Shown here: piece by piece, positions 47,627-52,723 of the stretch
How the letters are laid out: the number at the start of each line of letters is the position of its first letter
Position numbering within the stretch: the first letter of the stretch is position 1
NCBI GenBank assembly: GCA_938023035.1
Contig: CALIDI010000009.1
Span: 1-64,000 of the forward strand
Length of the DNA stretch: 64,000 nucleotides
Direction of reading: 5' to 3'
Source of the DNA: an uncultured Leptolyngbyaceae cyanobacterium
Lineage (GTDB): Bacteria; Cyanobacteriota; Cyanobacteriia; Leptolyngbyales; Leptolyngbyaceae
Made by a program: the position numbers and the translations under genes
Notes under the pieces: generated by a model
The model's input: the letters and a program-made list of their open reading frames with translations, nothing else
The model's database searches: none
Told to the model about the DNA's origin: nothing

Positions 47627-49093
47627 TTAACCCCCTGACTGCGGTAGTGGCCTACCAGCATTCGGAGCAGGATTTGGCAAAATCGCGGCACATTCAGACA
47701 AATTCAAAATGCCAGAAACAACAACCTTTTCTTCTGGCTTCAACCCCTCTAACACCTGATAGCGGTTATCTTGAATGCGACCCAGTTTCACCGGGCGTTG
47801 ACGAGCGACCAACTCTGGTGGCGGCGGGGCGGGCATCCCAGGTGGCCCCATGCGTGGCGCTTTGGCTAGGCGCTCTTTGCAGGTATCATCCAGCGGCTGA
47901 GCTACAAAAACGAAGGTCTCGCCGCCTAAGCGAGAAATCGAAGCAGTGGGAACTAGGACTCCTGGTTGCTCCTTCCAAATCACGCGCGCACGCACAAACT
48001 GCCCCGATCGCAGACGACCATCACGATTCTCAAACGTTGCCTTCGCTGTCACACTTTGGGCGCGCCTATCCACCTCTGGAGAAATAAAGGTAATGCGTCC
48101 AGCACTAAGGCGTTTGCCACTACGGTCTAGCAGTTCTACCCGCTGGCTCATGCGCAAATCGGTGGCCTGCTCTAAGGGCACAGAGATCCGCAAATCTAAA
48201 AAGTCATTTTGGGTCAACGTTGTGAGCGTATCACTGCTGTTCACAACCTGCCCTAGCTTGACAGGGATATCCCCCACAACGCCATCAAAGGGGGCAACAA
48301 CTGTCGTTTCGCTGAGTTCTTCACTGGCCAGATTGGCATTTGCCTGCGCCCGGTTCAACTCAGACTCCGCACTGGCCAGACTGGCTGTGGCAGCATTAAT
48401 CCGTTCTTCAATTACCCGGAGCTGGGCCACCGCATTGCTGCGGGCACTTTCGACCTGATCGAGCTGCTGCTTGGGCAACGCTCCCTGAGATACCAGACTC
48501 GAAATGCGACGATATTCTTTATTCTGCAAATCTACATCAGCCGCGCGGGCAATCCGCTCCTGCCGGACGGCATCTAACTGAAACCGGGCATTATCCCGGG
48601 CTGATCGCGCCGACTGCACCCCTGCCTCAACACTTGCCAACTCCGCCAGCCGCTTCTCTGGGCGCAGTTGAATGATGGGTGTACCTGCTGTTACGCGATC
48701 GCCCGCCTGCACATAGATATTACTGATCCGACCGGCCAACTCTGGGCGCAGTGGGGCTGACAAGCGCGACTCTAACGAACCGACAAAGTCAGAAAACTCT
48801 AAAACTGGCTGGGTTCTTGTAGTCTCAAGGGAGACGGGGATTCCGGGCGGCATGTCCCCCATCATGCCCCCAGGCCCCCTCTGAGCATTCGCCCGACTAA
48901 CTAAAAACCAGCGCACGCCAAAACCTAAACCAACTAGGGCTAAGAGGATGCCACCAAAGGCAACAAAGCGCCGAGGAGAGAACCCCAAACGCTGGGGACT
49001 AGGTGGATCACTGCGGGTTTCAAGCGGTGAAGCAAGCGACTGAGGCTGTTCTACATCACCCGAATCTGGAGAGGAAGGAAGGGAACCAGACAT
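47627..49093 (-). CDS. RND efflux periplasmic adaptor subunit (membrane fusion protein)
   Basis: A 488-aa adaptor. Residues 1-45 are cytoplasmic and Pro/Ser-rich; a membrane anchor follows at about 48-68 (FVAFGGILLALVGLGFGVRWFLV). Then come the biotinyl-lipoyl half-motifs (LRPELAGRISNIYVQAGDRVTAGTPIIQL and ETTVVAPFDGVVGDIPVKLGQVV) around a coiled-coil hairpin (about 150-240), and a beta-barrel domain. The C-terminal domain contains a proline-rich stretch (MGPPGMPAPPPPELV). AGGAAA supports the ATG at 49093. It pairs with the RND pump gene downstream and is read away from padR. Confidence 0.94.
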   Translation of the reverse strand: MSGSLPSSPDSGDVEQPQSLASPLETRSDPPSPQRLGFSPRRFVAFGGILLALVGLGFGVRWFLVSRANAQRGPGGMMGDMPPGIPVSLETTRTQPVLEFSDFVGSLESRLSAPLRPELAGRISNIYVQAGDRVTAGTPIIQLRPEKRLAELASVEAGVQSARSARDNARFQLDAVRQERIARAADVDLQNKEYRRISSLVSQGALPKQQLDQVESARSNAVAQLRVIEERINAATASLASAESELNRAQANANLASEELSETTVVAPFDGVVGDIPVKLGQVVNSSDTLTTLTQNDFLDLRISVPLEQATDLRMSQRVELLDRSGKRLSAGRITFISPEVDRRAQSVTAKATFENRDGRLRSGQFVRARVIWKEQPGVLVPTASISRLGGETFVFVAQPLDDTCKERLAKAPRMGPPGMPAPPPPELVARQRPVKLGRIQDNRYQVLEGLKPEEKVVVSGILNLSECAAILPNPAPNAGRPLPQSGG

Positions 49094-49219
49094 GAATGTT
49101 TCCTGAGGATGAGTGAGATGCAAACGAGCAAACTATTGGGGAAATTACGTAGCGGCTACTCCCCCCGACGACGGAGACAAAAATTAAAGATTTACTTCAT
49201 AATCATAACCGAATGGTAA

Positions 49220-51796: not shown

Positions 51797-51964
51797 AGGG
51801 AACGATAACGCAGAGACTAAACCATCAGCAGTCAAAAGTAATGGATGCTTCAGGCATAGCAGAATAATGACAGGTAAATTCAGAAAAGTCTGCCTAGCCA
51901 CTACTTTGGTCAGCAAGCTTAGGACAAAACCCAGTGCTCAACCGCCCATATGGAGATTTGGCCC

Positions 51965-52225
51965 ATGCCACGCTATAACCCCTACACACTGCAAATGCAA
52001 ATTACCCGGATGTTTGAGCAAGGGCAGTCTTTTTTTGCCTTAACCAAAGTGCAGGAATGGTTGCGAGATCATTCTCAAGACCCGACAGACTACGAGATTT
52101 CGTTTCATCAAAAGCCTGCCCCCCCAGGCTCCGGCAAAGTTCTCGTAGTGGAGGTTGAGTTGCATCGTCGAGATGGCCAACCCGTCGATAAATGGCTTTT
52201 GCAGGAGGTCAGGCGGCAATCCTAA
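51965..52225 (+). CDS. Small conserved cyanobacterial protein
   Basis: An 86-aa soluble protein (MPRYNPYTLQMQITRMFEQGQSFF, FALTKVQEWLRDHSQDPTDYEISFHQ, GKVLVVEVELHRRDGQPVDKWLLQEVR). GGAG 9 bases upstream supports the ATG at 51965. The length and composition are those of a real gene and I believe homologues exist in cyanobacteria, but I know no function. It stops only 5 bp before the palindrome in front of petE. Confidence 0.65.
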   Translation: MPRYNPYTLQMQITRMFEQGQSFFALTKVQEWLRDHSQDPTDYEISFHQKPAPPGSGKVLVVEVELHRRDGQPVDKWLLQEVRRQS

Positions 52226-52230
52226 CCTGG

Positions 52231-52253
52231 AACTACGACATGATGTCGTAGTT
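52231..52253 (+). promoter_or_regulatory. Perfect 23-bp palindrome upstream of petE (candidate operator)
   Basis: Half-sites AACTACGACAT and ATGTCGTAGTT around a single G. It lies 50 bp before the petE start; TAAGAT at 52260 could be the -10, placing the palindrome over the -35 region. There is no U run and only a 1-base loop, so an operator is more likely than a terminator. A BlaI/CopY-type repressor (such as the copper-responsive PetR of other cyanobacteria) is a plausible ligand, by inference. Confidence 0.7.
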
Positions 52254-52303
52254 TGGTTGTAAGATCAAAGATGAAGCTGAATAGATGAGTCCATTAAACC
52301 ATC

Positions 52304-52723
52304 ATGAAACAGGTTAAGTCTTTGATCAAAAGCCTCCAACTAGCTGTGTTTGCTGTAGTGCTGGTCGTAGGTACGCTTTTTGCCGCTATGGCCCCCGCTG
52401 CTGCTGAAACCATCACGATCAAAATGGGTGCTGACAATGGCATGCTCCAGTTTGTGCCGGCTGAAGCAACCGTCAAGCCAGGTGACACCGTTAAGTTTGT
52501 GATAAATAAGGTGCCTCCTCATAACGTTGTATTTGATGATAAAGCCATTCCTGGCCAAGATAAAGCTCTGGCAAAGGCCCTCTCTCACCAACAGATGGAA
52601 ATGAGCCCTGGTCAAGGTTTTGAAGTTACCATTCCTAAGGATGCTCCTGCAGGGGAGTATACCTACTACTGTGCGCCTCACCGTACCGCTGGGATGGTGG
52701 GCAAGTTGAAGGTAGCGGCCTAG
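52304..52723 (+). CDS. petE: Plastocyanin precursor
   Basis: A 139-aa precursor of the copper protein that carries electrons from cytochrome b6f to photosystem I in the thylakoid lumen. Residues 1-34 are the signal peptide ([21 protein letters not shown], cleavage before ETITIKMG). The copper ligands are all present: His in [11 protein letters not shown], and Cys, His and Met in [13 protein letters not shown]. The mature length (about 105 aa) is normal. Plastocyanin expression depends on copper in many cyanobacteria, where it replaces cytochrome c6; the upstream palindrome fits such control. It is transcribed alone. Confidence 0.96.

Follow-up and report, generated by a model that had tools for sequence, protein, structure and literature searches.

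A perfect palindrome before petE is a predicted PetR operator, and predicted PetR sites in cyanobacteria take two forms

The closest described system is PetR/PetP of Synechocystis PCC 6803, in which the BlaI-family protein PetR is paired with a neighbouring BlaR1-like protease (PMC7896320). PetR binds the petE and petJ promoters with opposite outcomes (PMC7896320), and the commentary in that source and reviews describe PetR as a repressor of petE and an activator of petJ, with gel-shift support. The copper-dependent removal of PetR by PetP is presented as established for this strain (PMC7896320, PMC13421787, PMC12292863, PMC10141476, PMC10278186), while the commentary treats it as an open question how PetR binding gives opposite outcomes (PMC7896320). 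The regulon is given there as four proteins, and as petE, petJ and slr0601-slr0602 in PMC12382314. Related repressors with solved structures (1okr/1sax, 1p6r, 2g9w) include MecI and BlaI, likewise controlled by proteolysis; the staphylococcal MecI/BlaI operators are described as having TACA/TGTA halves (PMC7253601). Their signal is a beta-lactam, whereas that of PetR is copper, and one PetR target is activated. The CopY/CopR repressors are also related to PetR and have a cop box described as TACANNTGTA, refined to RNYKACANNTGTMRNY (PMC7253601).

The window analysed here is the whole 64-kb stretch of DNA. Its petE gene (52304–52723, plus strand) encodes a plastocyanin precursor of 139 aa (PF00127, 88.3 bits; TIGR02656, 134.3 bits with a cut-off of 87.85). 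Upstream lies AACTACGACAT-G-ATGTCGTAGTT, a perfect 23-bp palindrome at 52231–52253 (no strand assigned) that we propose as a PetR operator of petE. It ends 50 bp before the petE ATG at 52304, exactly as a sequence-only reading of this DNA had claimed. Within it, a 17-bp operator core, TACGACA-N3-TGTCGTA (52234–52250, no strand assigned), corresponds to the dyads conserved at petE in the family. Unlike in PCC 6803, the proposed petE operator is here a perfect 23-bp palindrome, and the petRP genes described below are divergent from petJ.

The 23-mer has no other place with up to three mismatches in the 64-kb window (mean of 0 in shuffles), and its arms are the only perfect non-overlapping inverted arms of at least 11 bp within 40 bp there. 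The sequence-only reading had named recurrence at many unrelated loci as an outcome that would speak against an operator; with up to three mismatches, the 19-bp core CTACGACATNATGTCGTAG is matched nowhere else in the whole 4.75-Mb genome, where its reversed pattern likewise has one match. The symmetry by itself is only moderately unusual for 64 kb. In Markov simulations, perfect inverted repeats with 11-bp arms and a 0–3-bp spacer occurred in 4 of 60 runs, or 0.067 times a window, and since such repeats arise in about 1 in 15 windows, symmetry alone is weak evidence. The palindrome gains its significance from its position at petE and from conservation in relatives.

Among the petE regions of the family, 29 of 41 have a degenerate dyad, TAYGACA-N3-TGTCRTA, within 200 bp of petE, whereas the reversed pattern reaches 1 of 41 (both at ≥11 of 14 positions). 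The 12 regions without the dyad count against the operator reading. A single family member, G015, has only a weak best PetR match (23 bits), and the petE dyad is absent there. The same-genus relative G147 carries an imperfect dyad, AACTTCGACAAAGCGTCGTAGTT, at the same place, which implies that the dyad either predates the perfect symmetry or has decayed in G147. The specific half-site of the sequence-only reading thus survives in part: the dyad is conserved, but the conserved half is approximately TAYGACA around a 3-bp centre and not CTACGACAT. That the palindrome is a functionless product of chance or of dispersal is extremely unlikely; simulated windows do yield repeats of this size at the rate given above, but it is single-copy in the genome, and a dyad occupies the corresponding position in the same-genus genome as well as in most family petE regions.

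The palindrome could also act as RNA, either as a terminator hairpin of the upstream 91-aa ORF or as a hairpin in the petE leader. Its transcript can form a stem of 9–10 bp with a 3-nt loop, and it begins 5 bp past the stop codon of that ORF, which ends at 52225. No terminator-like hit was obtained at the palindrome, however, where a GC-containing stem followed by a T-run was lacking, and its folding is modest (z −1.95 against shuffles, of which 7 of 200 fold equally well). Relatives keep the petE dyad though their arms differ and pair incompletely, and the recurrence of the operator core at petJ is contrary to an RNA element, which we regard as very unlikely. The 91-aa ORF itself (51950–52225, plus strand), directly 5' of the palindrome, has no Pfam or NCBIfam match.

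No blaI-like gene had been seen in the window by the sequence-only reading, and a whole-genome search agrees: the single PF03965 (BlaI-family) match, at 104.7 bits with a cut-off of 22.6, lies on another contig, C11, so that the BlaI-like regulator on which the earlier reading depended does exist in the genome. A search with the PetR protein gave a second, weak match in this genome (23.1 bits, contig C33), a point against. At the C11 locus (L002), petR overlaps by 4 bp a gene for an HExxH protease (motif HEQAH). The protease scores 29.0 bits against PF05569 (M56), just below the cut-off of 31, which is another point against, and 23.1 bits against PF01435 (M48), above the cut-off of 20.3. Divergent from this pair is petJ, encoding cytochrome c6 (PetJ equivalog model, 146.5 with a cut-off of 135). 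A blaI-like gene paired with an M56-like protease gene, much as had been suggested as a search target, is thereby found next to petJ, and judged from its genes the locus is a petRP-petJ arrangement with a putative PetP-like protease.

The nearest solved structures to PetR are 2g9w, 2k4b, MecI (1okr/1sax) and BlaI (1p6r). Against TIGR02698 (CopY_TcrY) it scores 48.6 bits, under the cut-off of 121.95. CopY has a C-terminal Cys-X-Cys copper motif, whereas neither PetR nor 7 aligned orthologues contain one, as expected if copper acts via the protease and not on the repressor. Like the cop box, whose inverted halves are described as KACA...TGTM, the proposed operator here has a half, GACA, that fits the K (PMC7253601). 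The centre of the cop box is two bases, that of the operator here three (GACA-NNN-TGTC, reading ACA-TGA-TGT), and thus one base wider than in MecI/BlaI if their sites equal TACANNTGTA (PMC7253601). The palindrome lacks the ACANNTGT centre of a cop box in either form, and no TACANNTGTA occurs in the 64-kb window.

Conservation at petE was also followed in a class sample of 146 genomes, of which 124 have petE and 95 have PetR at ≥117 bits; an absent PetR may in some genomes reflect an assembly gap. We scanned 250 bp 5' of petE with TACGACANNNTGTCGTA, the core found here with its 14 defined bases, at a threshold of ≥11/14. The 130 regions comprise 95 from genomes with PetR, a count that agrees with the 95 PetR genomes by coincidence, and 35 from genomes without it; fragments and second copies in G090, G106, G081 and G058 and weak cupredoxin hits were omitted. 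The dyad was found in 21 of the 95 regions and in 0 of the 35 (Fisher p 0.0007, a value that ignores kinship), and the reversed pattern in 3 and 0, respectively. The remaining 74 PetR regions, which have no such dyad within 250 bp, are a point against, and the whole score distributions of the two groups show no significant shift (Mann-Whitney p 0.12). At ≥10/14 the counts are 25/95 and 1/35, with 11/95 and 7/35 for the reversed pattern. A further point against is that, across whole genomes, the reversed control yields far more places than the petE-type pattern itself, which has 22, 10 of them at petE.

PetR/PetP control in PCC 6803 was described by Garcia-Canas et al. in 2021, and the published PetR site is reportedly GACN5GTC; a printed PetR site was not found in the literature searched. 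This exact core occurs at petE in 27/95 regions with PetR and 4/35 without (reversed: 12 and 3), and alone it discriminates poorly.

A different form of the site is found at petJ. In the petJ promoter of the present genome the operator core is joined to a −35 box, giving TTCGACAGCCCGTCTTTTGAC; the expectation that the half-site would recur at petJ thus held for the core, with different flanks. At 15 of 30 PetR loci a dyad stands before petR, and its other strand mostly reads TTTGACA-NNN-TGTC and then TTTTGAC. These sites were picked by the core or by near matches to the symmetric pattern and are thus the less biased choice. From 15 genomes we drew the composite pattern TTYGACRNNNYGTCTTTTGAC, searched with at most one mismatch. 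It occurs at 180 places in 87 of the 146 genomes, against 18 places in 15 genomes for the reversed pattern. In at least 44 genomes it lies 54–274 nt (median 92) 5' of a PetJ match.

The composite is present in 86 of the 95 genomes with PetR vs 1 of the 51 without, and in 71 of 80 PetR genomes once the 15 source genomes are removed; the nine PetR genomes that lack it are a point against. The p-values for PetR and composite ignore kinship, for which the within-family count is the sole guard: in the eight families holding both PetR states, 32 of 36 genomes with PetR have the composite vs 1 of 25 without. The exception without PetR, G077, has two composite sites, one 5' of a gene for a DnaJ-domain protein and one at which no ORF was found.

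In the genome studied here the only composite match with up to one mismatch is a perfect one, C11:91429-91449, 60 bp before petJ; the reversed composite pattern also has one match. Looser scans give fewer places than their reversed controls (23 vs 28 for the composite with three mismatches, and 101 vs 169 for the core with two), so weak sites are indistinguishable from chance. Of all TWYGACANNNTGTCRWA places in the genome, the 17-bp core at 52234–52250 alone is free of mismatches. The recognisable PetR-type sites of this genome are those at petE and petJ.

Because the sole BlaI-family gene adjoins petJ, most petE genes of the family retain the dyad and the core recurs at petJ, the palindrome is in all likelihood the petE operator at which a PetR dimer would shut off petE at low copper. 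The operator of a dimeric repressor, PetR, was what the sequence-only reading had seen in it; the genomic predictions support this, and the many PetR genomes with no strong petE dyad are the part that fits less well. Binding of PetR at the palindrome is itself a prediction, and a PadR-family gene lies 2.4 kb away, so another dimeric regulator might use the site, such as one of the NtcA, LexA, Fur or PadR types. We consider this unlikely. In 52151–52320 there is no match to GTAN8TAC or AGTA-N4-6-GTTC, the NtcA and LexA motifs, and the composite site tracks the presence of PetR, also within families, and stands at petJ beside petR. The NtcA and LexA motifs were set aside on that interval, and the cop-box motif for want of matches in the 64-kb window. 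The PadR-family gene (PF03551; 49261–49830, plus strand) is divergent from a minus-strand gene at 47627–49123 that by eye resembles an efflux-pump adaptor.

The promoter elements of petE bear on how PetR, if it binds the palindrome, might repress. A probable −10 element, TAAGAT (52260–52265, plus strand), is separated from the 17-bp core by 9 nt; TAAGAT, TAGAAT or TAAAAT is present at this position in the nearest genera. Among 33 petE dyads, xAxxxT peaks at the same 9-nt distance downstream in 20, and a second class with an 18-nt gap accounts for 11. A probable weak −35-like element, ACGACA (52235–52240, plus strand), lies inside the left half of the operator, with a 19-nt spacer to the −10. 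The overlap with a −35 that had been suggested earlier is thus favoured indirectly, by TAAGAT and its counterparts in relatives, whereas a simple sigma-70 scan at petE called no promoter with a 16–18-bp spacer. With the transcription start placed from these elements, near 52272, the petE dyad would be centred at about −30, where it overlies both the −35 and the spacer, and at about −39 in the second class.

At 109 composite sites, the spacer between the closing TTGAC[AG] and xAxxxT is most often 17 bp (52 sites) or 18 bp (42 sites), over a background of about 8 per offset. The match to TATAAT averages 2.5/6 at the 17-bp and 2.2/6 at the 18-bp offset, each value being taken over both groups together. 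If the −10 occupies −12 to −7, the petJ dyad would be centred at about −43/−44 and reach just to the upstream boundary of the −35, which would be an activator position. TTTTGAC follows 0 of 21 petE dyads, sites that were chosen by the symmetric pattern. The petE and petJ sites also differ in symmetry (p 1e-7), a test that is partly built in because the former were chosen by the symmetric and the latter by the composite pattern. A dyad over the −35 at petE and at its edge at petJ is what one would expect if PetR represses the former and activates the latter.

The switch may work as follows. When copper is scarce, PetR would persist and bind both the petE palindrome and the petJ composite. At petE, the bound dimer would span about −38 to −22, covering both −35 and spacer, and would exclude RNA polymerase; at petJ, PetR would occupy about −51 to −35, next to a TTGACA −35 whose −10 is weak, and help the polymerase. 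When copper is present, PetP would destroy PetR, which would lift the repression of petE and deprive petJ of its activator. On balance we favour the broader proposal that PetR reads two architectures, with a symmetric dyad over the −35 giving repression and a dyad fused at its 3' edge to a TTGAC −35, which a 17–18-bp spacer separates from a weak −10, giving activation, the latter marking a wide cyanobacterial copper-starvation regulon. If this is true, moving the dyad or swapping the TTTTGAC edge should flip the sign of control, and the sequence rule for PetR sites would yield lists of candidate copper-starvation genes in many cyanobacteria. The palindrome is very probably a further PetR-type operator, whose value lies in the comparison of the two operator forms and in the sequence rule; it would also offer a compact operator for copper-regulated promoters.

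Overlapping tandem dyads, e.g., CTACGACGACCTGTCCTACGACAACCCGTC, stand upstream of petE in G146, G153 and G166 (L283, L284 and L287). They are ∼14–15 bp apart, which is the phasing of the two TTTGAC repeats in the petJ composite. The PetR frame seems to be interrupted in two of these genomes, by an internal stop in G146:C14 and by a split into two pieces in G153:C81. Both nonetheless have strong petE dyads, and the interruption may be a sequencing error or a recent loss.

Unlike the four regulated proteins of PCC 6803, the genes that follow composite sites in other cyanobacteria are of many more kinds. The first ORFs were tallied at 90 loci with 91 ORFs (L229-L258, L325-L384). For 60 of these loci, the choice of composite sites passed over those already at a PetJ match and about 20 others, which leaves petJ under-represented in the 91. 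The first ORFs include 17 TonB-receptor plug proteins, 12 DsbD_2 proteins (7 of which match a ferric-reductase transmembrane model), 10–11 PetJ, 9 PepSY_TM, 4 MbnP and 2 cytochrome bd subunit I proteins. The named families make up at most 55 of the 91, a count that covers composite sites only. The remaining ORFs are assorted or unnamed, and some surely follow chance one-mismatch sites. The named families suggest that composite sites mark a predicted copper-starvation regulon wider than the four PCC 6803 proteins. A literature search, with most subscription papers outside its scope, found no link between PetR and MbnP.

An unnamed family of His-rich, secreted-looking proteins may also belong to the proposed regulon. 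It has seven members, of which one lies 3' of petJ in the present genome and six follow composites (L085, L232, L234, L242, L253 and L325); one of the seven has a weak DUF2846 match. The member encoded directly 3' of petJ (L002:2796-3308, plus strand, contig C11) is 171 aa long, with the motifs EIPxGQPVPTV...GHAHLYINGxK...RLYGSWYYL, and has no Pfam or NCBIfam match. AlphaFold predicts an all-beta fold (pLDDT 77.6), for which a structure search found no PDB match at E ≤0.001. In L337 (G100) and L339 (G121), the composite lies 318–333 nt 5' of the gene for cytochrome bd oxidase subunit I, which would fit a copper-free oxidase taking the place of a copper-containing one. Small proteins with GLTT repeats (PF01744) follow the composite sites of L237, L245 and L344.
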